From: Siphonodentalium dalli
Taxonomy: Eukaryota > Mollusca > Scaphopoda > Gadilida > Siphonodentaliidae
Direction of reading: 5' to 3'
Length of the DNA: 64,000 bases
Assembly (NCBI GenBank): GCA_032622095.1
Contig: CP136069.1
Span: forward strand, 181,463,122-181,527,121
Shown here one piece after another: positions 36,741-64,000 of the stretch. Positions within the stretch are counted from its first letter, which is position 1, and each line of letters opens with the position of its first letter. Below the pieces are notes generated by a model. The model did no database searches and had not been told where the DNA came from. It worked only from the letters and a program-made list of their open reading frames with translations. Position numbers and translations under genes: made by a program.

Positions 36741-39670
36741 CGCATAATTATTTATCTTTTGTTGCGAAGGTTTGTGTCAGATTTATCATTGCTTTGTTCA
36801 CTTAATTGATCCAACACTCTAATAACTACATTGGTCTCCTTGTTGAACGGTTTGATCGAGGTTGGGCGAGATATCACCCCAGTAAAAAATTAAAAACACA
36901 AGCCCTGTCTCTGAGGACAAAATTTAATGCATGGCAAGTAAGATGAAGTGGCTTTATTATATATGGCAGGATAACCTCCTTAATACATGGTATTAACTGT
37001 GTCCACAACATGTCCGTCTTATATTACCATAGTCGTATGGTATTGTTTCCGCCCCTTGACATCTATCTGGACCGAAAGTGGTCCCACCCTATTGAGAATG
37101 ACATGTGCTTTTTTTTAAATATGTTCGATCCTATGCTTCTTGACAAAATCAATTATATACCGTCCACTGCAGCAACTCGTGGGTAGATTTGTATGTCTAT
37201 AGCATGATTTTGCGATGTGTGTGATTTAGAATGGGGATAAACATGCTGTCTGCTTGATTTGTGACGTTTTTCGGTAGGTTTTCCGATGCAAAATATCCGT
37301 TTTTACTGGCTACACGCTGCGCCGGTATTTAAAACTGTATTTTCCATCTCAAATCTCCACCGATAATCGTTCCAAATCACACCAGAAAAACATGTTTATC
37401 CTCTACATATCTGACGCTCGTTGTATTACCATATCAGGAATAGACTAACTAGAACGCTCCTTATTATTCTTTGCTCTGAGAACAATCAGTACCCAACTTA
37501 TCTATGACTTGACCAACATCTATACATCGATTTCCAAACTATTAGTGCGGACCCCTATTGAGATAATGGCTCCCGGAGCATCAGTAATGATCTCCAGTCT
37601 GACTTTGCTCAACTATAGTTTTCGTGTTCAATCCTGCAAACTAATGAGAACATTTTAATGAGAATTTACGCCGCCATAATTATACCAAACATTGTGACTT
37701 TTCGATGCTGAAAATTTCTTAGGGTGTTTAAATGCCGATGCACATTACATGGCCATGGTTCGTTCATACTTCCATATATTTGGAAGAAGGTAAAGATGGG
37801 TCGCTAAATACACGAATTGCTGATCGAAAGAAAAACATTTGTATACCCTGAAAAATCTTTCCAAAATAATATCATTTTGCCAGCTGCTTCCAATCGTTGA
37901 CATATAAAATAAACGCTCTTTATTTGTCAAATCAGAATAGATCCCCAATCACACAGCCGCAAAATTATTATATTATTATGACATTAATTGTTATTAATTT
38001 GGGAGAACGCTCTTTATTCTTCTATTCTGCTCTGAAGAAAAATCGGCTCAAACTAATCGGTGACTTGAGTAAGTCTTTCTGTGAGTCCGTCTGTCCAAGT
38101 TTCCTTCGACGTGAACCAGCTAGTGTAATATGTTGGGATAATGCTGGTTTTACGTCGAAGTCTCGAAATCAGACTTTACGCCTATATCCAGTCACTTTAA
38201 TTGATGTTTAATATTGGTGATTAAATACACAAAATGCCGACAATCTTAGTATAATCTGAAATGTCTTGCAAAAAGTGGTCGCAAATTTGAAGTTCTTTTC
38301 AATCTTTGATATATAACATACACACTCTTTATTGTTTCATATAGTCTGAAGAAAATCGGAACAGAACTTGGTATGACTTTCTGAAACACATGAAGTCCGT
38401 ATACAATTAAATGACCAATATCCGGTGAAGTTGAACATCGATTCCATGGTATTAGTGCGGACCCCTATTGAGATAATGATTCCAGGAGCACCGTTAAAGA
38501 TGTCCTACCTGACTTGACTCCACTATAGTTTTCGTTTTCGATGTTGAAAGCTAATGATAACATTTTAATGAGATATTTACGACGCCAGTTATCGACATTT
38601 GTGACTCTTCGATGCTGAAAATAATGAGAAATGTCCTTGATATGTTTAGAGAGTGTATACGCCCTCCGTTACAAACTATCTACACACATTAAACGGGAAT
38701 GGTTCACATGAACCTCCAAATGTATCGACGAGTAATAGACAGAGAGCCCAGGGAGTTTCAATTGCACTATCGCATACGAAATATTTGATGCCTTCGATTT
38801 GGTATCACGTTTGGACCACCGCAGAAACCCCATTCTGAAGTGTAACAATCCTGGCGTTTTGTGGCCGCTTAGACTCCAGACAAGATGGCGTCTGTCATGC
38901 CGACCATTTTGCTTGATATGCACCATACTATAGTATATACATGAAGTACAGAATGTTTCATATAGGCGGTCATGCTTTCCACGCGATTCGCCAGAGTTAT
39001 ACACCAGATCTATAATTGAGCCACAAACCAGACTAAGATAACATTGACTTCGGGTGTAGCCCGAAAAATGCATGGATATATAGATTTGTCTCCCTGATGA
39101 ACGGTTTGAATGAGGTTGGGCGAGACACCCCCAGTTAAAAAAAACAGAAACACTGTCTCTGATGACAAAATTTAATGCATGGCAAGTAAGATGACGTAGC
39201 TTGAATCTATATGGGCTTTTTCGCCATATTGGGTCTCAATACGCACCTGATTATGATACGACTAAACTGATATCCGAACCGACAGTATGCATGTTCTTGT
39301 GATCAGGGCCTTATATATACGTAATCTTTCATTCGCCTATTTGTTTGAGCAAATTTGACTGCTGAGATGGATGTTCAATTAATTTAATTAATCGATCCAT
39401 AATAGATGTGTATACATGATTCGAAAATGGTATTCATATTTAGATGAGATACGCTCAACTCATTAGTCTCCGATACACACGAAAACACGCGAAAACTCAC
39501 CAGAACTCTATCAATACTATCAAATCTAAGATCGGGTGTTATCGACATTTTGATTCGCAACTTTGACATCTATCTGGATCGATAGTGGTCCCACCATATT
39601 GAGAATGACACGTGCTTTTAAAAATATGTTCAATTCTATGCCTCTTTGACAAAGTCAATTATATACGGAC

Positions 39671-40489
39671 ATATTGTCGGCAGTGTGGAAGGCCGCTGAT
39701 TATGTTAGTGAATAGATTTTCTTGAAAAATTGAGAGAGCAAAACAGAAAAGACTATTGAAATAATTCGCTAAACATTGGTTAATGGTTAGATCTGGGAAA
39801 CCCGACTGACATCGGGTGGGTAAATATTCCTTCTTCGTGTGGTTCCTTGTCAGTTTTACATTGAGAAACACAATATTCGCATATTATATGCGTGAAAATT
39901 CTTTCCCATTTGGTCCGGTTTGGTGATACCTTCCGGGTCGGTGATACCAGGTACACGGGGTGTAGTTTGCAATCCTAAAATTATATTTCTTTATGGGTCA
40001 AATTTGATAACCCATTTTGGTGCAGATCATACCACAAAGCTCTACTGCATGTGGTTACGCCCATACATTCACATAATATTCCACCTGTTCATTTAAAGCC
40101 TGGGAAGTTTTTTTGGAGAAATTTATAACATTGAAAAAAGCAACGCATGTAATATATTTCTTTATTAAAACCTGTCCAACAGTTCAGATGCCGCTTCTGG
40201 TGAATACTCAGAAGCAAATTGCCTTTACTTGACTGACCTCTTGGTGCAGGATTGACTGGAGCCTTTATTCAACGTCAGAGGCGCCTGCGGCCCCTTTGTG
40301 CGATAGGAGCCTGCGACACCTTTGCGCACACTTTTATCATTTGAAAATTTTAATTAAAAAAAAATATATTTAATTAAATTTAAAAAAACACAAATTAATT
40401 TACATTTTGTTTCTTCTTAGATTCAACTTCTTTCTCAATTTAACAACACTATGTTTTCTTCTTTTTTTTAATTACATTTTTTTATTTTA
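39671..40489. other. AT-rich sequence, no gene seen
   Basis: Poly-A/T-rich stretch at 40330-40500. Nothing coding. Confidence 0.4.
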
Positions 40490-40549
40490 AAAATAAAATT
40501 TTGAAAACCTGACGCTGTTATACCATCCTCCTAGTTACCCCGAGTCACC

Positions 40550-40632
40550 ACACATAATTTGATTGAAATCGGTCCAGGGTCTGGGAGAAAAGTTGCGAAC
40601 AGACAGACGGACAGACAGATAAATAGACAGAT
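40550..40632 (+). mobile_element. 3' end of a tandem-core-like element
   Basis: 'TTGAAATCGGTCCAGGGTCT' is followed by a GACAGACGGACAGACAGA tail ending at about 40632. It abuts the 3' boundary of the nuclease-gene element exactly, so that element may have inserted at this tail. Confidence 0.45.
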
Positions 40633-40931
40633 TAGTGTAGGTAGTTAGCGACAAAAAATGCTCGGATCGACACAAGTCGGATAAAAGCGCCATTTTTTGA
40701 TATCATGTAGGACTGCATCTCTAGTCCAGGAATTTTCTCAAGAACCAACTTTTTGACCCGAAAATTCAAAATGGCGTCCAAGATGGCGGCCGGTCTGCCC
40801 GATTTGACGGTGGTACACCTAATGGTTTTGCTTCTCAGTTTGATATGGTAAGCATAACAAATGCCAAAATATTATCAAAGAATGGTGATTCTAGAATAAC
40901 AACCCAAACTTTTAATTGAAAAATGGCCACA

Positions 40932-40937
40932 TTTATT
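40932..40937 (-). promoter_or_regulatory. Possible polyadenylation signal of copy 1
   Basis: AATAAA on the minus strand, about 830 bp after the stop codon (about 365 bp if the copy-1-specific block is discounted). The same hexamer is retained in copy 2 at 48571-48576. Confidence 0.4.
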
Positions 40938-41094
40938 GAAGATGGATGCCAAAATGGCGGCCAAAACATGACAATTGGGTTTTTTTTCCTTATTTTTTTT
41001 CAATTCTTTATAATTTTCTAGATAATATAAGGTAAGATATCATCAATGTCTTCACTATCTGATGGAATAACCACCGTAGAAGAGTCATGCACAT

Positions 41095-41560
41095 TAAAGC
41101 TGAAGTAGTATTGTTCGTTCTGGTAGAAATGTGAGGCAGAATATGTGTTATGTAAAATGAACGAAATTATTCTCAGACAGGATTTCATTCTGTAAATGCT
41201 TAGAATCCAACCATGAATGACATTGATGTCTTCAGTTCTATTTGCGACACTACCATATGGTTGGATCAATTAAATAAACATTTGAATGTCGAGATGTTTT
41301 AAATATAAATGCGATTCAGTAGTGGATTTACCACGAAATTAGGAAACACTCAATGACAAAACCTATAATCGTCAAATTCCATTTTGTTTTCAAAACAGGA
41401 ACACATGGAACGTATTCTGCAACTTATCTTCATCATCGTGTTCACATTAGCAATATTTAAATTTAGTGTTTATGTCCAATTATACACAACATTATTGGGG
41501 CATAAACTCGTAAGTATATTTGAGGTCGGAATAACAACTAATATTGCTTCCTTGTAACAT
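41095..41560. other. 466-bp block present only in copy 1
   Basis: Copy 2 joins directly across this block. The four bases ACAT occur at both edges, so it is either an insertion with a 4-bp target duplication or a deletion in copy 2 at microhomology. The edges do not give GT-AG on the minus strand, so it is not a normal retained intron. Confidence 0.7.
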
Positions 41561-41768
41561 ACAGTTCATGCTAGCGCAAGAGGAAATCACAGACACCCTT
41601 GGATATAGCCCAGATTCAATAGTATATGTATTAGTGCAATGTATTGCATGTATATGTATGATTTTATTCTACTATTGTTGCTGGTATATGCTCCTGGGAG
41701 CATGTGGTGGGAAGATGGGATCAGTAAATTTGAAAATGCATTTTGTTTAATGAACCGATTTGGACAAT

Positions 41769-43088
41769 TCACTTCTCACAACCACATCTGCACAACTTCG
41801 TGCATGGAAGTTTGTTTTTTGAGCATTTGCACCTTGAACAAACTGACTTGCAGACACATTTAATTAACTCGGTGCACACTCTAGCCGCTTCTGGGATTGT
41901 CATCCATACTGGAACAAATGAACCGTCAATCAACTTCCATCCGAAGGAGTCAGGAGCTGGAAACTTTGCATCCACTATGGGGCTCAAAGTCCATATACCA
42001 GCCTGATATATAGCACGATTTACATGTTGCAGAAGCGCGTTTCTCGTTGGTGGTAAATGTTCAAGTGTACGGCCTTTGCTGAACATTTCGCGTCTAGCTT
42101 CATTAACTGAGGTAAGGTTTGCTGTTTTGTCATAAATAATTACAACGAAACGCTCAATGCACTCAAATAATGGAGACGAAACATCAAGTACCACAAAAGG
42201 TTTCTTTATAATCGACATCAAACATTCTGTGAGGTCTGAGTAAGCTTTCCAGGCATCCCAAAATGTGCGCTTACCTTTGCCAAAGAAAAACGAAGTTGAG
42301 TCACATCCTGATAGCGCATGGAACATTGGAAGTACAGTTGACTTTTCTGAACCCATTGTATTGTAGATATCAACTATGTTGTAGGTAAAATGTGATTTAG
42401 ACTTTCCGAAAGACACAAACAGTTTCAAATCTTTGCATTGAAGTAACATATCATGCATATGTCCCAACAGAATCACAATAATATCTGTGTCAACCGTGCG
42501 AACAATAATCGACGAAAAATCAGTCTGTAGCATATTAAATATATGTCCGACTAATCTGCTGTCAGCTTCTTCGTGCGTACATCCGATCAGAATAGGTTCT
42601 ACGTTAGGAGCATTGCATACCGTGTTAGCACCCTCTGTTACAAAGATGGTTTTCCCTGTCGGGGTGTCCACTTTCAAAATACATTCATTAATCAATCCAA
42701 ACAATTCTTGCTTGTTGGTGGTATTTCTCAGAAAGTCATTCCAATTCGATGGAATTTTTGTGGTAAGCCCCGCCTTACGTCGAATGCCACAACCACGTTT
42801 CTCTCTCGTTCCCGTTTTGACACTGCCCTCCAAATACCTGTCCCATACCAAGTCAACTCTGCTACAGTCTGCGAGCTGCATCATGACATACGGAATGAAC
42901 GTTGTACTAATATACATCGAGAAGGTATGCCCGACTTTAGGTGGCAATAAATGTATGAGAGCACCCCCGTCGAACACCTTACATTCGACCTTTGGATTCG
43001 GCTCTGCAGTGTCTGCGTTGTTTGAAACGGCTGGGATCTTCATGAAGCTTAGTAAATCACATTTATTACCGCTCCTCATTTCGCCCAC
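41769..43088 (-). pseudogene. C-terminal FEN/XPG-like nuclease and CXC domain, copy 1
   Basis: 439 codons. Acidic positions are arranged as in flap endonucleases: D40 in KVFDGGALIHLL, D83 in VDLVWDRY followed by the basic TREKRG, E173/E174/D176 in THEEADSR, D200/D202 in VRTVDTDIIVI, and D263 in LSGCDSTS with a GKGK motif just after it, where FEN1 has its helix-two-turn-helix. Residues 411-437 hold nine cysteines in the pattern of a Tesmin/TSO1 CXC DNA-binding domain. The inferred activity is a metal-dependent nuclease or nuclease-like protein targeted by the CXC domain. The motifs are seen; the activity is inferred. It is separated from the upstream part only by a one-base frameshift. Confidence 0.8.
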
Positions 43089-44101
43089 TTTGGATATGGA
43101 TGGGGGAACTGCTGGTTTTCATGTGAGAAGAACATGGATGGGTCACCCTGCCGAACTTGGTTGGAAATATACAATCTGCCGAAAAGATTAATGTCATTTT
43201 TTAAAAGCTTGACGACTCCTGATTTTGATAACTTCTTCGGTTTTGGTGATTTCAATAGGGCCAACTTGTTTTTCTTAATGGGATCATGTATGTCTCTTTG
43301 TCTGTCTATCATAACATCTTGATAAAATTTCTTGAACTGTTCTTTCCCTAATATTTTAATTTTCTTCAATGACTCTACGACTGAGGCATCTGCACAATTT
43401 CGAGAGTCAATAACAATAAGTTCTTTGCCATCCTCACGGAAGGGATTCCCGAAATCACGAACGGAGTCAGAAAACGAACCGACTTGTTTGACAAATTTAC
43501 TCTGTGAGGATGCGCCTTCCTCGTGGTGTTTTGATGGTGTACTGTCGTCAATGTCTAGAAACAAACGTTCGTACTCTGTTGTGACCCTTACTACCTCTGG
43601 AGAAGACACAGACCATCTCTCAAGTGAGTGAATGTTGTCGACCAGACCGATGAGACCTCCGCTACCTTTTAGTTTTTCATTTTCTTGTTCGTGTGTCTGG
43701 TCGATGGCGAGACATGAAAAGTTACGAGTGGTTTTCTGAACTACCCAATTCTGGCGAAACTCGGAACTGTCGGGTAACGATCTCATATCTCGTAAATGTA
43801 CAGACAACCATCTACTATAATTATAATGGTCGAGGGAGAAAAACAAGTACATCAGTTCATTAAGGGAAGACACGTATAGCTCGAAGTTCTTAGTGCGATG
43901 TGCCTTGATGAATGTTAGGATTAATAGTTCCGTTTCTAGAATCATATCCCAAAACAGAAATGTCGGGCTATCTTGGCATTGCTGTTCTCTCCATGACACA
44001 AACATTGTCTCGTCGTATGATTCGTGAAGCTTCTCGTTGCAGAATAGAGAGCCCAGCGGCCGTAACCTGATGGGCATGTCTTGTCCGGAGTATATGTGCA
44101 C
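43076..44101 (-). pseudogene. Middle segment of CXC/flap-nuclease protein, copy 1
   Basis: About 341 codons that continue the same protein after the 11-bp deletion; the first methionine is not a genuine start. It is rich in charged residues, with HESYDETMFVSWREQ, FFSLDHYNYSRWLSVHLRDM and WVVQKTTRNFSCLAIDQTHE. The last phrase matches the style of multi-copy transposon-associated proteins in aquatic animals. The frame ends after NQQFPHPYPKWAK. A G-run at about 43095 has five G here and six in copy 2, so one lost base shifts the frame. Confidence 0.75.
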
Positions 44102-46241
44102 AGTTTATGAACGAGTTGGCAGTTCCAGATGAAGCAATTCCTGCTTCAGTCAGAATTGTAGTCCACCCTGAAGAATCAAGTAGATCGCCTAATGCATTCC
44201 ATAGTCCCTTTTCAATGTGCAGTCCACCAAACATGACGGTGATGTTGCCCTCGCCGAGAGTTACCGGCCATTTCCACTGAACTAGTTTGCATTTTGCGAA
44301 TATTGGACAGTCGCATGCGATCACTGGAATCTGACCTGCATTCAGAAAATTGGTTGTTGTTTTAACAACTTCCATAGCATGTTTAACCATAGAAGGGCTG
44401 TCCGCCTTTTCAAAGAACACTGGCAGCAGGGAAACTACAGCAATATTTCCAACAGTTATACCAGAATTATTCGCGTGAAATGCGGCCCATGAAACATTTT
44501 TCGGGGATTCTACTGCTTGTTCTATCATATTGTTAACGGTGCTAACCCACTTCTGTTCGTCCTGCAGAGCACATTGCAGTGGCTCGTTGTTAACAGATTG
44601 TTGCGCACAGATAGCAGGTTGTACTTGAACCGATGCTTCATTGAAAGTTATGGCATTCACAAGTTTATAACACTCTGGAAGTTCACACTGGCCGCTTCCT
44701 CTTGGTGTGTTTACATATTCATATTCTCGTGGTCTCTCGTTTTTCGGTTGGTGCTGGATAATGCTTATTCCCGTTCCATGGAAAGAAGAATTTGCTGTGT
44801 TTGAAGAAGGGTTGTGGTCTATATTATCGAATGCACACACGGTGTATACATTTTTGACCATAGCTGGTGGGCACACGAGACCGTCGGACATGTAAATTTT
44901 ACTGACAGAAACCGCTAGCGAATTTTCAATGTCCATTACTCTGTTGTATGAAATCGATATGCCAAGGTCACACAGGCGTTCCACGAGTAGTTTACTCCTA
45001 GTCATTGAGTGAACTTTCAGGCCAACATACACAGGAACAGGTGGCTCGCGGAAACGATTTGACCTTTGTGGATCGAGCACCCGTATTTTAGATCGGCGCT
45101 TTTTGGCATTCAAGGCGAGCAATTGAGTGATTGAATGGCAAGCTTGGGTTTCAGCATGTCCTTCGTGTATGTTTGTGCCATATAATATCATCGAGATCAA
45201 CATTCTCGTTGTGGGCCCAAACCTTTGTGAATCAGCATGGAAGGTACCTTGAAACTCTGTATCATGGTCACAGAGTAGTTCCTCTCGACATATTTTGGCG
45301 ACTTTTGCAAACAGTTGGGCTTCCTCTGTGTAATCACGATCTTGCAACTTTGTTTTCAGAATAGTCTGCATGGCCGCCGGAAATACAAGGAGGGTGTTCT
45401 TACCATCGCTCTGTTCTTGGATCCCTGTTCCAGCGAAATGAGACATAATTGAAGTCTTAAGTCGATGCACGTTGATTGATGTCTCACAGTCCAATTGTCG
45501 TAATCGACGTTCGTAGTCACGGCGCAAATCACTCAACTTGTGAACAAGTGTCCCGTCCTCGACATCATACTTTATGTGGTCCGTGAGCTCTACAAACACC
45601 CTCGCCTTCACCATCCGAGCTTCAGCAGAACAATCTATTTTCATGCTTCTAAGCAGGGACCGATACCGGTTTCGAAAATCTACCATGCATAGTGTATGAT
45701 ACTTCGCCTCAATAGCGACAAGGTCTCCATCGGAAATCCGTATCAACAGATCAGACTCGTTCATTTCTTCTGCCATGTCTCTCAGGGATGTTTCAGCATT
45801 AAATGTTTCAAACGAATGTAACGATCCTTGCCTCTTACCACAACACAAAATACAATCTGCCTTGAGTAAAGACCCTTCGTCTTTGGTGCACAGTCGTTTG
45901 GATCGCCTTTCATCTGCCATGGACTCATCTTTCGTTTTGCGTTTTTTCGCTCTCTCCAGTTTGGAATTACTGAACCTCTGACGACAACTGTGGTGCCAGC
46001 TAGCCCGATTTGCCAGCAGTAACTCTGGTGTATAATCAGTTCCGAAATCTGCATCGAGCCCAACAGGAAGCTGGTCGATTTCGCGAAAAGTTTGAACGTT
46101 ATCCAGGAAGGTCTTGTATACCGATAAGGCATCTGCGTTCACGCGATCTTGTGGACAAAGTAGGGGGTCCCCGGTAATCAGTTTGCATATTACACATAGC
46201 ATCCAGTTCATCTTCCAGTCAAACCTGGAATATATAATCAT
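43968..46241 (-). pseudogene. N-terminal half of CXC/flap-nuclease protein, copy 1
   Basis: A 757-codon frame, of which the last 25 or so residues are out of frame after a deletion near 44030. Residues 16-86 (C16, C19, H83, C86) and 130-185 (C130, C133, H182, C185) form two CxxC...HxxC modules, probably zinc-binding, separated by a basic stretch (AKKRKTK). A central region contains VYVGLKVHSMTRSKLLVERL, a DNIDHNPSS motif and FHGTGISIIQH, wording I recall from multi-copy uncharacterised proteins of corals, molluscs and fishes. The start may be M11 (46211). An acceptor-like TATTCCAG directly precedes that region, so a 5' exon is possible. Compared with copy 2, 11 bp are missing at about 44028. 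Confidence 0.8.
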
Positions 46242-46379
46242 ATATTCACATTTCTGGAATCTGGATATATATGGGACTGTTCTACGCTAATTTTCCGACT
46301 AGATTATGAATTTGTGCGAATATCTGTGGTTTACAACAGAAGGAAACTTTATAAAAATGTTTGCATATTACTTTGGCCA

Positions 46380-46500
46380 AACAAGAAGGAGGGTATCACC
46401 CCCTCCCCTGAATCCTGAATACCAGTTAATTTGGGAGGGAGTGAATCCTGAAGACAGTTATTTGGGGGGGGGGGGGGTGAATCCTGAATACATGTTAATA
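46380..46500. repeat. Short 'TGAATCCTGAA' repeats with poly-G
   Basis: Three spaced copies of 'TGAATCCTGAA' and a G-run of about 15. Confidence 0.7.
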
Positions 46501-46800
46501 AATAATATGCGATAAATATACACATACATAGACACATTATGATCCATTATATGTGACATGATATTGGAGTAGAGTATTTGAGGAGATACATTGACAAGTT
46601 AATCTATTGAGGACATGTTATCCTTAACGGTTTGTGATTTTTTTTTAATGTTTCTACAGATTGACAATATAATAACTTCATCCTTAACCCTTTCTATACT
46701 GGAACATCATTTATGAGTAGTTATCCCATAGGAAATGTTTGTATAATAAGTTCAACAAACGACCTTTATTATCTGAACATTTCCCTCAATACATTTGACT
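46501..46800. other. No gene seen
   Basis: AT-rich spacer between the copy 1 5' end and the C-rich tandem array. Confidence 0.4.
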
Positions 46801-46804
46801 CAAT

Positions 46805-47497
46805 CTTGGACAGAATAACAGAATCACCCCCCCCCCCAGAAACATTGGGACATAGTTCTGTACCCTAGGCCCCAGAAAATAAATGGACAGCATTTTGTTT
46901 CCTAGGCGCTTGCCAGGATATTTTGCCCCACCCGTTTCCAAACAAAATCATCCCCTGCCCCCCACCCCCCCCCCCCCAGAAAAAAAATTGGACAGAATTA
47001 TGTTTCCTAGGCGCTTGCCAGGATATCTTGCCCAACCCATTCCTTTATAAAATTATTCAACCTTTCCCTACGCCTAAACAAATGGACAGCACCCCACCCC
47101 CAATGGACAGCATTTGTTTGTAGTCACTTGCCAGGATATCTTGCCCCACCCGTTCCCAAACAAAATCACCCCCCCCCCCAGAAAAAAATTGGATAGAATT
47201 CTGTTTCCTAGGCGCTTGCCAGGATTTCTTGCCCCACCCATTCCTTAAAAAAATTATTCAACCTTTCCCTACGCCTAAACAAATGGACAGCACCCCACCC
47301 CCCCCCCAATGGACAGCATTTGTTTGTAGTCACTTGCCAGGATATCTTGCCCCACCCGTTGCCAAACAAAATCACCCCCCCCAGAAAAAAATTGGCTAGA
47401 ATTCTGTTTCCTAGGCGCTTGCCAGGAATTCTTGCCCCACCCATTCCTTAAAAAAATTATTCAACCCTTCCCCACGCCTAAATAAATTGGACAGCAC
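46805..47497. repeat. C-rich tandem array, ~202-bp period
   Basis: 'AGAAAAAAATTGG' recurs at 46979, 47180 and 47383. Each unit has 'TTCCTAGGCGCTTGCCAGGA', 'TTATTCAACC', 'AATGGACAGCA' and a poly-C run of varying length. Partial units flank the array. Frames through it are rejected as coding. Confidence 0.8.
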
Positions 47498-48030
47498 TCC
47501 GCTTTTATTTCTCGTTTTGCTATAATAGCGTCCTCACAAAGTTGGGACCACAAACACACATGCATCCTTACATCCGCATACAAACCCACCACCCCTCCAC
47601 ACCCCCCCCCCACACCCTCACACCACGGACGATTCTATGAATTAGTATGCAAAGCCCCGCTGTTTCTTTTTTCATGATTTTTAGATGTTTATATCATTCT
47701 ATCTCATCTCGGCAAAATCGGAATCAAATGGATGCGCCGGATAAAACATATATATTATTACCCAGGCATAACGGCATTTGACACATAACAGAAAGCGAAA
47801 GATAACTATTTATTTGAAACTGATGTGGCACCGAAGTGGTTAATAGTACAAAATAGAAATGCGTGTCGCATTTGTGAATTGCCTGTTGTCGGTAAATTTG
47901 TGAGGACATTCACGTATCTACACACTAATATGTGACCATAATGACCTTTGTATATCAATGTTATATATCGAATTCACATAGCAGTAATATTATGCTATTA
48001 TATGATGTAATTTGACGTTATTGTGTTTGT
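47498..48030. other. No gene seen
   Basis: Sequence rich in ACACC and CCC runs near 47580-47620, then AT-rich. Confidence 0.4.
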
Positions 48031-48038
48031 TTATTTAA

Positions 48039-48287
48039 GTGGAATTTCGTCCCGAAGAAACTTTTACGGGACATAACTCTATGCAGAATAATAAGTACGT
48101 ACCTTTGAAACTTCGTACCAGGGTGAATGTTCATCGGCAGTTCATGGGTGAACCAAGAACTGAAAAGTTGGTTCTTGAAGCGATTCTTCATGGCAATGGT
48201 CTGTTGATGCTTCTTGCAAAAAACCGCGCTTTTATCCGACGTGTATTGATCAAAACGCTAACTACATACACTAGTGTAGGTAGTTAG
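48039..48287 (+). pseudogene. 82-codon frame related to the 3' module of the nuclease element
   Basis: Residues about 42-75 read EKLVLEAILHGNGLL then AKNRAFIRRVLIK. The minus-strand translation of 40640-40790 (and of the same part of copy 2) reads KKLVLEKIPGLEMQS then SKNGAFIRLVSIR, a clear protein-level match. The two run tail to tail and meet at 48271. This is probably a fragment of an older, related element in plus orientation. Its function is unknown. Confidence 0.5.
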
Positions 48288-48331: not shown

Positions 48332-51300
48332 TTTTTTGATATCATGTAGGACTGCATCTCTAGTCCAGGAATTTTCTCAAGAACCAACTTTTTGACCCGA
48401 AAATTCAAAATGGCGTCCAAGATGGCGGCCGGTCTGCCCGATTTGACGGTGGTACACCTAATGGTTTTGCTTCTCAGTTTGATATGGTAAGCATAACAAA
48501 TGCCACTATATTATCAAAGAATGGTGATTCTAGAATAACAACCCAAACTTTTAATTGAAAAATGGCCACATTTATTGAAGATGGATGCCAAAATGGCGGC
48601 CAAAACATGACAATTGGTTTTTTTTTCCTTATTTTTTTTCAATTCTTTATAATTTTCGAGATAATATAAGGTAAGATATCATCAATGTCTTCACTATCTG
48701 ATGGAATAACCACCGTAGAAGAGTCATGCACATACAGTTCATGCTAGCGCAAGAGGAAATCACAGACACCCTTGGATATAGCCCAGATTCAATAGTATAT
48801 GTATTAGTGCAATGTATTGCATGTATATGTATGATTTTATTCTACTATTGTTGCTGGTATATGCTCCTGGGAGCATGTGGTGGGAAGATGGGATCAGTGA
48901 ATTTGAAAATGCATTTTGTTTAATGAACCGATTTGGACAATTCACTTCTCACAACCACATCTGCACAACTCCGTGCATGGAAGTTTGTTTTTTTTACACC
49001 TTGAACAAACTGACTTGCAGACACATTTAATTAACTCGGTGCACACTCTAGCCGCTTCTGGGATTGTCATCCATACTGGAACAAATGAACCGTCAATCAA
49101 CTTCCATCCGAAGGAGTCAGGAGCTGGAAACTTTGCATCCACTATGGAGCTCAAAGTCCATATACCAGCCTGATATATAGCACGATTTACATGTTGCAGA
49201 AGCGCGTTTCTCGTTGGTGGTAAATGTTCAAGTGTACGGCCTTTGCTGAACATTTCGCGTCTAGCTTCATTAACTGAGGTAAGGTTTGCTGTTTTGTCAT
49301 AAATAATTACAACGAAACGCTCAATGCACTCAAATAATGGAGACGAAACATCAAGTACCACAAAAGGTTTCTTTATAATCGACATCAAACATTCTGTGAG
49401 GTCTGAGTAAGCTTTCCAGGCATCCCAAAATGTGCGCTTACCTTTGCCAAAGAAAAACGAAGTTGAGTCACATCCTGATAGCGCATGGAACATTGGAAGT
49501 ACAGTTGACTTTTCTGAACCCATTGTATTGTAGATATCAACTATGTTGTAGGTAAAATGTGATTTAGACTTTCCGAAAGACACAAACAGTTTCAAATCTT
49601 TGCATTGAAGTAACATATCATGCATATGTCCCAACAGAATCACAATAATATCTGTGTCAACCGTGCGAACAATAATCGACGAAAAATCAGTCTGTAGCAT
49701 ATTAAATATATGTCCGACTAATCTGCTGTCAGCTTCTTCGTGCGTACATCCGATCAGAATAGGTTCTACGTTAGGAGCATTGCATACCGTGTTAGCACCC
49801 TCTGTTACAAAGATGGTTTTCCCTGTCGGGGTGTCCACTTTCAAAATACATTCATTAATCAATCCAAACAATTCTTGCTTGTTGGTGGTATTTCTCAGAA
49901 AGTCATTCCAATTCGATGGAATTTTTGTGGTAAGCCCCACCTTACGTCGAATGCCACAACCACGTTTCTCTCTCGTTCCCGTTTTGACACTGCCCTCCAA
50001 ATACCTGTCCCATACCAAGTCAACTCTGCTACAGTCTGCGAGCTGCATCATGACATACAAAATGAACGTTGTACTAATATACATCGAGAAGGTATGCCCG
50101 ACTTTAGGTGGCAATAAATGTATGAGAGCACCCCCGTCGAACACCTTACATTCGACCTTTGGATTCGGCTCTGCAGTGTCTGCGTTGTTTGAAACGGCTG
50201 GGATCTTCATGAAGCTTAGTAAATCACATTTATTACCGCTCCTCATTTCGCCCACTTTGGATATGGATGGGGGGAACTGCTGGTTTTCATGTGAGAAGAA
50301 CATGGATGGGTCACCCTGCCGAACTTGGTTGGAAATATACAATCTGCCGAAAAGATTAATGTCATTTTTTAAAAGCTTGACGACTCCTGATTTTGATAAC
50401 TTCTTCGGTTTTGGTGATTTCAATAGGGCCAACTTGTTTTTCTTAATGGGATCATGTATGTCTCTTTGTCTGTCTATCATAACATCTTGATAAAATTTCT
50501 TGAACTGTTCTTTCCCTAATATTTTAATTTTCTTCAATGACTCTACGACTGAGGCATCTGCACAATTTCGAGAGTCAATAACAATAAGTTCTTTGCCATC
50601 CTCACGGAAGGGATTCCCGAAATCACGAACGGAGTCAGAAAACGAACCGACTTGTTTGACAAATTTACTCTGTGAGGATGCGCCTTCCTCGTGGTGTTTT
50701 GATGGTGTACTGTCGTCAATGTCTAGAAACAAACGTTCGTACTATGTTGTGACCCTTACTACCTCTGGAGAAGACACAGACCATCTCTCAAGTGAGTGAA
50801 TGTTGTCGACCAGACCGATAAGACCTCCGCTACCTTTTAGTTTTTCATTTTCTTGTTCGTGTGTCTGGTCGATGGCGATACATGAAAAGTTACGAGTGGT
50901 TTTCTGAACTACCCAATTCTGGCGAAACTCGGAACTGTCGTGCAACGATCTCATATCTCGTAAATGTACAGACAACCATCTACTATAATTATAATGGTCG
51001 AGGGAGAAAAACAAGTACATCAGTTCATTAAGGGAAGACACGTATAGCTCGAAGTTCTTAGTGCGATGTGCCTTGATGAATGTTAGGATTAATAGTTCCG
51101 TTTCTAGAATCATATCCCAAAACAGAAATGTCGGGCTATCTTGGCATTGTTGTTCTCTCCATGACACAAACATTGTCTCGTCGTATGATTCGTGAAGCGC
51201 GATGAATGCTTCTCGTTGCAGAATAGAGAGCCCAGCGGCCGTAACCTGATGGGCGTGTCTTGTCCGGAGTATATGTGCACAGTTTATGAACGAGTTGGCA

Positions 51301-51676
51301 GTTCCAGATGAAGCAATTCCTGCTTCAGTCAGAATTGTAGTCCACCCTGAAGAATCAAGTAGATCGCCTAATGCATTCCATAGTCCCTTTTCAATGTGCA
51401 GTCCACCAAACACGACGGTGATGTTGCCCTCGCCGAGAGTTACCGGCCATTTCCACTGAACTAGTTTGCATTTTGCGAATATTGGACAGTCGCATGCGAT
51501 CACTGGAATCTGACCTGCATTCAGAAAATTGGTTGTTGTTTTAACAACTTCCATAGCATGTTTAACCATAGAAGGGCTGTCCGCCTTTTCAAAGAACACT
51601 GGCAGCAGGGAAACTACAGCAATATTTCCAACAGTTATACCAGAATTATTCGCGTGAAATGCGGCCCATGAAACAT
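48272..51676 (-). mobile_element. CXC/flap-nuclease gene element, copy 2 (5'-truncated)
   Basis: Nearly identical to copy 1 from the shared 3' boundary up to 'ATGAAACATTT' at 51676. There it switches abruptly to a tandem-core family 2 element. The corresponding copy 1 point is about 44500, so roughly the first 580 codons are missing. Differences include the missing 466-bp block, a nonsense codon, a 6-bp deletion in the CXC domain and scattered substitutions. Confidence 0.75.
48942..50732 (-). pseudogene. C-terminal 596 codons of CXC/flap-nuclease protein, copy 2
   Basis: Continuous where copy 1 is frameshifted, because the G-run at about 50267-50272 has six bases. It covers the end of the middle segment, the full FEN/XPG-like region with all acidic motifs (FDGGA, VWDRY, EEADSR, VDTD, SGCD) and the CXC domain. 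In the CXC domain a 6-bp deletion removes one cysteine and one serine compared with copy 1 (SRCKKNKLPC instead of SRCKCSKNKLPC). It is preceded by a TAG that stands for GAG in copy 1 (VTT-stop-YERLF at about 50740). Confidence 0.8.
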
Positions 51677-51800
51677 TTGGTCCGGGCTTTGACCTTGAAT
51701 TGGCCAATTTGAAGTTCAAGGTCAGGTGGGGTAACGATTTGACCCGTCCAAAACACTGCCCGAACAAAAGTACCCGACAAACGTGCCCGTCGAAATCCAT
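50742..51800 (-). pseudogene. Chimeric frame: repeat leader fused to middle segment, copy 2
   Basis: 352 codons. The first 42 or so residues (FGRVKSLPHLTLNFKLANSR) are translated from the adjoining family 2 repeat. From VSWAAFHANNSG on it is the nuclease-element protein, through the position where copy 1 has its 11-bp deletion; copy 2 keeps those bases (QREAFIALHESYDE). It ends at the nonsense codon shared with the previous entry. The join is probably a chance in-frame fusion rather than a working start. Confidence 0.7.
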
Positions 51801-55857: not shown

Positions 55858-58800
55858 ACTAGCCGATGAGCCCGACGTTGTCCGGGCTATTCATCCGGGC
55901 TATTCAAAAACCAAATTTCAAGTCGATCGCTCTACCCGTTTCCGAGATCTGGTCTGCGCATGCGCGAAGCTGGCGTCGCACGGGCTCGGCGACCCGATAA
56001 AATTCGTATCCGGGGCAAGATACATTCACATACCAAATTTCAAGTCGATAGCTCCACCCGTTTCCGAGATCTCGTCTGCGCATGCGCGAAGCTGGGGTCA
56101 CACGGGCTCGGCGACCCGATAAAATTCGCATCCGGGGCAAGATACATTCACATAGCAAATTTCAAGTCGATAGCTCCATCCGTTTCCGAGATCTCGTCAG
56201 CGCATGCGCGAAGCGGGCGCCGCACGGGCTCGCCAATATGCCGATGAGCCCGACGTTGTCCGGGCTATTCAAACACCAAATTTCAAGTCGATAGCTCTAC
56301 CCAGCCCGACGTTGTCCGGGCTATTCAAAAACCAAATTTCAAGTCGGTCCGGGCTATTCAAAAACCAAGTTTCAAGTCGATAGCTCCACCCGTTTCCGAG
56401 ATCTGGTCTGCGCATGCGCGAAGCTGGCGTTGCACGGGCTCGGCGACCCGATAAAATTCGTATCCGGGGTAAGATACATTCACATAGCAAATTTCAAGTC
56501 GATAGCTCCACCCGTTTCCGAGATCTCGTCTGCGCATGCGCGAAGCGGGCGCCACACGGGCTCGCCAATACGACAACGTTCACCGCCCGGTCAAACTACA
56601 CACACGTACCAAGTTTCGTCTCGATCGGTCGAGAATCGTAGATTTGTATAAATGACAGACAGACAAACAAACAAACATACAGACAGAGGTCTTCAAAATA
56701 TATATGAGACTAGCCGATGAGCCCGACGTCCGGGCTATTCAAAAACCAAATTTCAAGTTGATAGCTCTACCCAGTCCGATGTTGTCCGGGCTATTCAAAA
56801 ACCAAATTTCAAGTCGATAGCTCTACCCGATATGAGCCCGACGTTGTCCGGGCTATTCAAAAAACAAATTTCAAGTCGAAAGCTCCACCCAGCCCGACGT
56901 TGTCCGGGCCATTCAAAAACCAAGTCCGGGCTATTCATCCGGGCTATTAAAAAACCAAATTTCAAGTCGATAGCTCTACCCGTTTCCGAGATCTGGTCTG
57001 CGCATGCGCGAAGCTGGCGTCGCACGGGCTCGGCGACCCGATAAAATTCGTATCCGGGGCAAGATACATTCACCTACCAAATTTCAAGTCGATAGCTCCA
57101 CCCGTTTCCGAGATCTCGTCTGCGCATGTGCGAAGCTGGCGTCGCACGGGCTCGGCGACCCGATAAAATTCGTATCCGGGGCAAGATACATTCACATAGC
57201 AAATTTCAAGTCGATAGCTCCACCCGTTTCCGAGATCTCGTCTGCGCATGCGCGAAGCGGGCGCCGCACGGGCTCGCCAATATGCCGATGAGCCCGACGT
57301 AGTCCGGGCTATTCAAAATCCAAATTTCAAGTCGATAGCTCTACCCAGCCCGACGTTGTCCGGGCTATTCAAAAACCAAATTTCAAGTCGGTCCGGGCTA
57401 TTCAAAAACCAAGTTTCAAGTCGATAGCTCCACCCGTTTCCGAGATCTGGTCTGCGCATGCGCGAAGCTGGCGTCGCACGGGCTCGGCGACCCGATAAAA
57501 TTCGTATTCGGGGCAAGATACATTCACATAGCAAATTTCAAGTCGATAGCTCTACCCGTTTCCGAGATCTGGTCTGCGCATGCGCGAAGCTGGCGTCGCA
57601 CGGGCTCGGCGACCCGATGAAATTCGTATCCGGGGTAAGATACATTCACATAGCAAATTTCAAGTCGATAGCTCCACCCGTTTCCGAGATCTCGTCTGCG
57701 CATGCGCGAAGCGGGCGCCGCACGGGCTCGCCAATACGACAACGTTCACCGCCCGGTCAAACTACACACACGTACCAAGATTCGTCTCGATCGGTCGAGA
57801 ATCGTAGATTTGTATAAATGACAGACAGACAAACAAACAAACATACAGACAGAGGTCTTCAAAATATATATGAGACTAGCCGATGAGCCCGACGTTGTCC
57901 GGGCTATTCAAAAACCAAATTTCAAGTCGATAGCTCCACCCGTTTCCGAGATCTGGTCTGCGCATGCGCGAAGCTGGCGTCGCACGGGCTCGGCGACCCG
58001 ATAAAATTCGTATCTGGGGCAAGACACATTCACATACCAAATTTCAAGTCGATAGCTCCACCCGTTGCCGAGATCTCGTCTGCGCATGCGCGAAGCTGGC
58101 GTCGCACGGACTCGGCGACCCGATAAAATTCGCATCCGGGGCAAGATACATTCACATACCAAATATCAAGTCGATAGCTCCACCCGTTTCCGAGATCTCG
58201 TCTGCGCATGCGCGAAGCGGGCGCCGCACGGGCTCGCCAATACGACAACGTTCACCGCCTGGTCAAACTACACACACGTACCAAGTTTCGTCCCGATCGG
58301 TCGAGAATCGTAGATTTGTATAAATGACAGACAGACAGACAAACAAACAAACATACATACATACAGACAGAGGTCTTCAAAATATATATGAGACTAGCCG
58401 ATGAGCCCGACGTTGTCCGGGCTATTCAAAAACAAAATTGCAAGTTGATAGCTCTACCCAGCCCGATGTTGTCCGGGGTATTCAAAAACCAAATTTCAAG
58501 TCGATAGCTCTACCCGATATGAGCCCGACGTTGTCCGGGCTATTCAAAAAACAAATTTCAAGTCGAAAGCTCCACCCAGCCCGACGTTGTCCGGGCCATT
58601 CAAAAACCAAGTCCGGGCTATTCATCCGGGCTATTAAAAAAACAAATTTCAAGTCGATAGCTCTACCCGTTTCCGAGATCTGGTCTGCGCATGCGCGAAG
58701 CTGGCGTCGCACGGGCTCGGCGACCCGATAAAATTCGTATCCGGGGCAAGATACATTCACCTACCAAATTTCAAGTCGATAGCTCCACCCGTTTCCGAGA

Positions 58801-59637
58801 TCTCGTCTGCGCATGTGCGAAGCTGGCGTCGCACGGGCTCGGCGACCCGATAAAATTCGTATCCGGGGCAAGATACATTCACGTACCAAATTTCAAGTCG
58901 ATAGCTCCACCCGTTTCCGAGATCTCGTCTGCGCATGCGCGAAGCGGGCGCCGCACGGACTCGCCAATACGACAACGTCCACCGCCTGCTCAAACTACAC
59001 ACACGTACCAAGTTTCGTCCAGATCGGTCGAGAATCGTAGATTTGTATAAATGACAGACAAACACACAAACAAACATACATACAGACAGAGGTGTTCAAA
59101 ATATATATGAGACTAGCCGATGAGCCCGACGTTGTCCGGGCTATTCAAAAACAAAATTTCAAGTCGATAGCTCTACCCGTTTCCGAGATCTGGTCTGCGC
59201 ATGCGCGAAGCTGGCGTCGCACGGGCTCGGCGACCCGATAAAATTCCTATCCGGGGCAAGATACATTCACATAGCAGATTTCAAGTCGATAGCTCCACCC
59301 GTTTCCGAGATCTCGACTGCGCATGCGCGAAGCTGGTGTCGCACGGGCTCGGCGACCCGATAAAATTCGTATCCGGGGCAAGATACATTCACATAGCAAA
59401 TTTCAAGTCGATAGCACCACCCGTTTCCGAGATCTCGTCTGCGCATGCGCGAAGCGGGCGCCGCACGGGCTCGCCAATACGACAACGTTCACCGCCTGAT
59501 CAAACTACACACACGTACCAAGTTTCGTCCCGATCGGTCGAGAATCGTAGATTTGTATAAATGACAGACAGACAGACAGACAAACAAACAAACAAACAAA
59601 CATACATACAGACAGAGGTCTTCAAAATATATATGAG
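55858..59637 (+). repeat. Head-to-tail array of five family 3 tandem-core elements
   Basis: Five units each start 'ACTAGCCGATGAGCCCGACG' and end with a GACA/AACA tract, then 'GGTCTTCAAAATATATATGAG'. The starts are 55858, 56709, 57875, 58393 and 59112. Each contains a variable number of 122-bp core repeats ('GCGCATGCGCGAAGCTGG', 'AAATTTCAAGTCGATAGCTC', 'CACCCGTTTCCGAGATCTCG'). The last core is always a shorter variant with GCGGGCGCCGCACGGGCTCG. Unit lengths range from about 520 to 1170 bp. Many overlapping open frames on both strands come from a stop-poor 122-bp period and are not genes. Confidence 0.85.
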
Positions 59638-62540: not shown

Positions 62541-64000
62541 CTGGAGAAATGATTAAACGTCCAGAGATTTTCATAAAAACCCCATTCACAATTGATAACG
62601 TGATTCGACTTCCGCTTGAGTGTCTACCTAAATGTGGGCCCGCCTCATAGAGAAGGAACATCAGAATGAGGTTAATGGGATCTAATATAAATGGTTCGTC
62701 ATGAAACTGAATTTTAGCTGCCATGATAAAATCCCACAACTATTGCCGGGTGTTTCCACCTGAAGTACCCGGACCAAATATGTTGACCCTCATGCTTTAT
62801 AACCCTTGTTATGAGGGACAATATTAATCCTTGTCGCCACTACCGGTTGTAACTAGCAATTTAATTAGCTAGAACGTCACGTTAGCTACAATGTCCCATT
62901 CACCCTTGATAGCAGGGTTTAATAGAACGTACCCGAAACATCGGGAATATATGAATACTTGAAACATCGGGGCATATGCATGAATGAATGACCCTTGAAC
63001 TGGCAGTTTCAAACTATCATGATGCCGAGATGACATCACCTTACGTCGTCTACTGAATTATTCGTATTGCTATGAACTAATGTGATAACCTATGAAAAAA
63101 CAATTAAATTGAGACCGTATGGTTATTGGTGTGGTGACAAAACCGTTATCTCCGCAACATCGTGGGGTACATAGAAATTGACATCCCTGATATCTCAATG
63201 CCTGATATTGTTTTTAAAAAAGATGTCAGGTACTAAACATACTCCCCAATTATTACTGGTTGGAAATTCCGGCAATGCGAACAATTTCAACCTATGTGCT
63301 GTGTAATAGTATTGTGTCAGGCATGATATTTCCAACTTGAAATGTTGTACCACCCCATGACGCCACATCCCCGACTATATACAAGAGAATCGCGCAGCAG
63401 ATACATGTGTTATGTACCAACCTATCACCACGTCCCCGACTATATACAATATAATCACACGGCAGATACATATACTGTATCACGATATCGCAATCTCAAA
63501 CTTCTACTTTAACACTGCACCCTCCGAACGGCACTTTTCAATTTCGCCGCGCCGTTTGGTTGCAATGTTCTAATTACTGACCCATCAAACCTTCCAAACA
63601 TATTATCTGACTCGTCCATCATTGTTTATGGCCACCAGATGAGGAAAATATAATTTGATCATGAATTCATATGTCAGCATATGTATATTTGTTATACATG
63701 TACATGGTTATGGTAAATATAGAGAGCGATTATTTCACTCACGTTCGGGAAGTTGATAACATTCTGATACACTTTTTTGACCCAAGTGACGTGGTTCGAT
63801 GGTCCCGGCGGCGGTGTCCAACTTAGATTTTTAACCTGCACCAGGTCCTTTGAATCAGACCAAATTCCCAGGTCCGGGAAATTCCATCAGCCACTCCCTT
63901 TCGGCCGAAATGTTCCAACCATATACCACACATTCCAACGGCTGCAAGAAATCAATTTTTACCAACAGTTGAAAACTATCTGACTTTTGGTCTAAAACAA
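62541..64000. other. Intergenic sequence, no gene seen
   Basis: Short frames only. A 63-bp tandem duplication lies at 63367-63473. Weak phrases 'GAAACATCGGG' repeat near 62936 and 62961. Confidence 0.4.
63367..63473. repeat. Tandem duplication, about 63-bp spacing
   Basis: 'TCCCCGACTATATACAA' followed by 'CAGCAGATACAT' or 'CGGCAGATACAT' occurs twice, starting near 63367 and 63430. Confidence 0.75.

Follow-up and report, generated by a model that had tools for sequence, protein, structure and literature searches.

Three minus-strand reading frames at 41769-46241 of the window (the whole 64,000-nucleotide stretch of the Siphonodentalium dalli genome analysed here) contain zinc-like modules, the acidic motifs of a flap nuclease and a cysteine-rich tail, raising the question of what kind of gene carries this combination and which of its enzymes moves it. 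The features on which the analysis is based are listed in Table 1.

Table 1. Features of the two transposon copies (window positions)
Feature	Position	Strand	Remarks
Transposon copy A, TIR to TIR complete, coding region broken	40633..48273	-	BLASTN 98.6 % to intact copy L021, and TIR positions
Copy A 5′ terminal inverted repeat (TIR), TAGTGTATGTAGTTAGCG	48256..48273	-	
Copy A 3′ terminal inverted repeat (complement of TAGTGTAGGTAGTTAGCG)	40633..40650	-	
Tandem array of ~201-bp units in the 5′ region of the element	46967..47497	.	Tandem Repeats Finder
Piece 1 of the copy A ORF (757 aa), coding for the zinc-like modules and the beginning of the transposase core	43968..46241	-	
Zinc-like module 1, CVIC...WHHSC	45984..46196	-	Ligands invariant in 5 families
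Zinc-like module 2, CILC...YHTLC	45687..45854	-	Invariant at the first and last Cys and at the His
Candidate catalytic Asp 1, FDNIDHNP	44808..44831	-	D487 invariant
Candidate catalytic Asp 2, ACDCPIFAKC (DQP in most relatives)	44289..44318	-	D659 invariant
GGLHIEK motif	44208..44228	-	His and Glu invariant in 7 aligned families
Piece 2 of the copy A ORF (341 aa), coding for the latter half of the transposase core and for the linker	43076..44101	-	
Candidate third catalytic acid, AIDQTHEQ	43685..43708	-	D866 invariant; in DUF6589 ORFs, ADLQMEHL aligns here
Piece 3 of the copy A ORF (439 aa), coding for the nuclease region of FEN/XPG type and the CXC-like tail	41769..43088	-	
FDGGA, first nuclease Asp	42960..42974	-	
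VDLVWDRY ... TREKRG, second Asp and basic stretch	42792..42857	-	Aligned with FEN1 VFDGKPPQLKSGELAKRS
EEADSR, acidic cluster at the place of FEN1 EAEA	42555..42572	-	E, E and D invariant in 22/22
VDTD, two Asp	42483..42494	-	Conserved in 22/22 and 21/22
SGCD ... GKGK, last Asp and H2TH-like loop	42270..42311	-	hhalign onto FEN1 LLGSDYCESIRGIGPKRA
Nine-cysteine CXC-like tail	41769..41858	-	Weak Pfam TCR match in relatives
Copy B, 5′-truncated, head to tail with copy A	48272..~51678	-	
596-aa ORF of copy B; its nuclease region and its CXC-like tail are intact	48942..50732	-	
352-aa ORF of copy B, covering part of the transposase core	50742..51800	-	

A single ORF in a damaged transposon

The three frames are fragments of one ORF of approximately 1,500 residues, which is intact in other copies in the genome. 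In the intact copy L021, which is 7.46 kb long and located elsewhere in the same 2.2-Gb genome, the gene is a single uninterrupted frame of 1,509 aa; relative to this copy, the gene in copy A has been split by deletions of 11 bp and 1 bp. Intact ORFs of 1,507-1,534 aa are present in several families. The order of motifs is shared by seven aligned families, with CxxC...WHxxC and CxxC...YHxxC followed by DNIDHNP (D487), DQP/DCP (D659), GGLHIE and DQxHEQ (D866), and then by DGA, RVDxVWDxY, TRxxRG, HEEAD(T/S)R, VDTD, SGCD, GKxK and the cysteine-rich tail. Neither relatives of the element nor matches to FEN1 queries were found in viral contigs.

The locus holds a damaged cut-and-paste TIR DNA transposon. 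The ends of the element were set by aligning copies from unrelated loci; the TIR starts with TAGTGTAGG, or in a longer reading TAGTGTAGGTAGTTAGCG, which complete copies carry at either end, and imperfect inverted similarity continues inside. The first appearance of the ends was of a 2-bp TA target-site duplication (TSD), which was dropped because the TAGTGTAGG reading yields 3-bp TSDs in 12 of the 14 copies having both ends (AAA, CTG, ATG, ATA, CAT, AAA, TTT, CAA, TTC, TTT, TTA and TAT), where the chance of a 3-bp match is 1 in 64 per copy. Three families contribute to this count, including L030 and L032, in which the TIRs differ but likewise start with TAGT. For the 16-mer of the TIR core, the genome has 347 occurrences, versus 22 for the reversed control. 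Copies at different, unrelated chromosomal sites are 98.6-99.5 % identical, therefore the spread of the element is recent. The mobility proposed for this gene by the first-pass annotation is thus borne out by the TIRs, the TSDs and the near-identical copies at unrelated loci.

Copy A itself is flanked by CAC and ATC and has no matching 3-bp TSD. Its 3′ flank is common to L024 over 2.4 kb, and L007 has flanking sequence too; because these flanks are shared on the same contig as the window, segmental duplication is seen to have multiplied the copy A locus, including L024 and L007.

Several other observations were made around these copies. The 3′ end of copy B and the 5′ end of copy A overlap by TA (48272-48273), which is all that lies between the TIR cores at this junction; duplication, recombination and a by-product of transposition are candidate origins. 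At 38178-44139 and 62560-64000 the window is 98-99 % identical to the L024 locus, which lies on the same contig at a distance of ~6 Mb. A GC-rich tandem array with units of ~122, 56 and 454 bp is present at 55902-59473, and on another contig a related stretch lies directly upstream of where L021 is inserted. In addition, many elements of ~4.7 kb carry the same TIR (for example, G000 C1:163638054-163642724). Where their ends were read, all except one have 3-bp TSDs, and at least one has only a decayed coding region. The observations suggest that the ~4.7-kb elements are large non-autonomous derivatives.

The putative transposase core

A conserved D..D..D/E core sits between the zinc modules and the nuclease in the same ORF. 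It had been proposed that the element belongs to a class without a DDE transposase, in which the nuclease is the mobility enzyme; this is not supported, as the DDE-type core, the TIRs and the 3-bp TSDs speak against it.

The core is related to the Pfam family DUF6589 (PF20231), which matches the divergent full-length relatives L053 (1,541 aa) and L055 above the curated cut-off (29.4 bits versus a cut-off of 27, E 4e-7, in L053); the L053/L055 lineages are ~24-30 % identical. The seven main-family ORFs, including that of the family in the window, had nothing above cut-off in the Pfam scan, DUF6589 included, and a profile search of the PDB with the transposase alignment gave no meaningful match. 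Stand-alone DUF6589 ORFs are collinear with the element around the first Asp (DRL..SY..DNI) and at D..(M/H)E(H/Q), at weak pairwise scores, so that the DNI and D..MEH motifs align. Unlike the element protein, the stand-alone ORFs do not have the nuclease region. They (L054, L138 and L139; 616-630 aa, with the motifs GDN, GGDQLTRERF, ELWHMGMNFL and MEHL) are located in the same genome and are probably transposases of another element type.

The Glu of GGLHIE was considered as the third catalytic acid and is disfavoured. The aligned DUF6589 ORFs have HMGM at this place and keep both D and E at the place of DQxHEQ, therefore the third acid is more likely to be there. The region upstream of the nuclease is predicted to form a D-D-D/E core of RNase-H-like type that contains a helical insertion.

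The putative nuclease region and DNA-binding modules

In piece 3 the nuclease motifs start at residues 39 (FDGGA), 78 (VDLVWDRY), 94 (TREKRG), 173 (EEADSR), 199 (VDTD), 260 (SGCD) and 270 (GKGK), confirming the series of acids in flap-nuclease order that was first read from the letters of the window. Conservation was investigated in 22 sequences that are on average 43 % identical to L021. Across families that are 30-47 % identical, the full set of eight flap-nuclease-type acids is retained, each acid being present in 20-22 of the 22 sequences. Ten of the 40 D/E positions in the region are invariant and nine of these ten are motif acids, which at this level of identity excludes a chance origin of the series. 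The acidic positions, the conservation of which in relatives had been suggested as a check on the nuclease reading, have therefore been kept.

A profile of FEN1/EXO1 and 67 archaeal FEN1 sequences was used as the target for hhalign, which puts SGCDSTSFFFGKGKRTFW of the element on LLGSDYCESIRGIGPKRA of FEN1 in register. This match, which covers the last Asp and the H2TH-like loop, scored 28.2, versus 24.0 for the best shuffle and 14.1 for the reversed alignment, and none of 200 column shuffles was as good; the hhalign probabilities for the FEN match are only ~5 %. Independently, smaller profiles aligned VWDRYLEGSVKTGTREKRG with the VFDG region of FEN1. With the Asp1-Asp2 part or the middle part alone, the register against FEN was right or nearly so and the score was not above the shuffles. 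An hmmsearch of the PDB with the nuclease alignment returned no FEN and no meaningful match, and AlphaFold2, run without an alignment on the window sequence alone, gave pLDDT values of 31 and 34.

The element resembles FEN1, EXO1 and XPG in having seven to eight acids in the same order, a basic stretch after the second Asp and a last-Asp region that aligns in register and is followed by a G(I/K)GxK-like loop. In contrast to these enzymes, it has HEEAD(T/S)R in place of EAEA, its nuclease is within a transposon polyprotein and there is no significant full-length sequence similarity. The order, context and conservation of the acids favour a PIN/FEN fold, which is considered likely, though short of demonstrated given the low hhalign probabilities and the low confidence of the single-sequence AlphaFold models.

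The two CxxC...(W/Y)HxxC modules described by the first-pass annotation are present in the first frame (piece 1). For its third module, a Tesmin/TSO1 CXC domain (PF03638), the label is plausible but weak: a nine-cysteine tail does follow the nuclease motifs, with a spacing (CxC-x3-C-x2-CxC-x6-C-x3-CxC-x-C) close to the CXC pattern, but the Pfam TCR matches on the tail of relatives (E 0.24 and 0.72) are below the cut-off.

Probable assignment to the Academ superfamily

The class of the element, which the first-pass annotation considered could not be named, can be named: TIRs, 3-bp TSDs, a transposase and an XPG-type nuclease fit AcademX, in which the X stands for XPG. AcademX is the nuclease-encoding lineage of Academ, with TSDs of 3 or 4 bp, while AcademH encodes a helicase and has TSDs of 9-10 bp (Kapitonov & Jurka, 2010; Kojima, 2020; summarised in PMC10045372). 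For Academ, a TSD of 3 bp has been reported (PMC5199201), the superfamily is counted among the DDD/E superfamilies (PMC9587614), and it is reported to be amplified in bivalves (PMC10294476). The element is a TIR DNA transposon with an element-encoded nuclease and a TSD within the published range, and it probably belongs to the AcademX lineage; the likeness is to the published description of architecture and TSDs, and no difference from AcademX has been established. AcademH is similar in belonging to the same superfamily and encoding an accessory DNA-processing enzyme, but differs in its helicase, for which the ORFs of the element had no Pfam match, and in its longer TSDs (PMC10045372). No mention of the CXC-like tail or of the DUF6589 relationship was found in the accessible AcademX literature. 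The element is a new family of an already described kind of transposon.

Other origins are less well supported. It is unlikely that this is a distinct, undescribed TIR superfamily, in which a DUF6589-type DDE core, a FEN/XPG nuclease and a CXC tail were fused independently and which is AcademX-like in architecture and TSD length only. Such a reading draws on the seven main-family ORFs with no Pfam match above cut-off, on the divergence of the L053/L055 lineages, and on the comparison with Academ being one of published descriptions. Against it, the combination of TIRs, 3-bp TSDs and nuclease is AcademX as published (PMC10045372; PMC5199201), and therefore a second origin is unnecessary. In the improbable event of a superfamily apart from Academ, a DUF6589-class DDE core and a flap nuclease in one chain would share the chemistry of transposition, with the nuclease cutting the non-transferred strand, and this would be a single-polypeptide eukaryotic counterpart of TnsA/TnsB.

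A class mobilised by its flap nuclease, without a DDE transposase, is very unlikely: the complete and conserved set of nuclease acids would suit it, but the same ORF has the independent, conserved DUF6589-related core, and TIRs with constant 3-bp TSDs are typical of DDE transposition. A host gene cluster, such as a family of DNA-repair nucleases, would account for long open frames under constraint and for local copies on C9 that arose by segmental duplication; as the TIRs and TSDs already refute it, together with hundreds of termini and the near-identical copies at unrelated loci, this explanation has almost no standing. Assignment to AcademX is preferred.

Possible roles of the nuclease and their significance

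In an AcademX element of this kind, a single protein would unite the two zinc-like modules with a DDE-type core that is related to DUF6589 and RNase-H-like, with the FEN/XPG-type nuclease and with a CXC-like tail for DNA binding. The DDE core would carry out 3′-end cleavage and strand transfer, leaving the 3-bp stagger, and the zinc modules and CXC tail may bind DNA, keeping hold of the target or of the transposon ends. At these ends the flap-type nuclease may cut or trim the other strand (5′), or it may act on 5′ flaps after joining. By analogy, it would complement the DDE core as TnsA complements TnsB in Tn7. We infer such a division of labour between core and nuclease. Processing of the 5′ strand at the transposon ends has a nearly even chance of being the role of the nuclease, processing of flaps or gaps after joining is possible but rather doubtful, and some other role takes up the rest.

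What was seen as an unnamed mobile nuclease can now be placed in a named transposon lineage, with ends mapped, TSDs and intact relatives. Because the element encodes a DDE-type core alongside the nuclease, the question shifts to the job of the XPG-type nuclease in Academ transposition. The function of DUF6589 is recorded as unknown, and its link to this element suggests that the family is a transposase core. The element is thus of an ordinary class with an unusual set of enzymes, in which the conserved role of the nuclease and the DUF6589 link are the useful leads.
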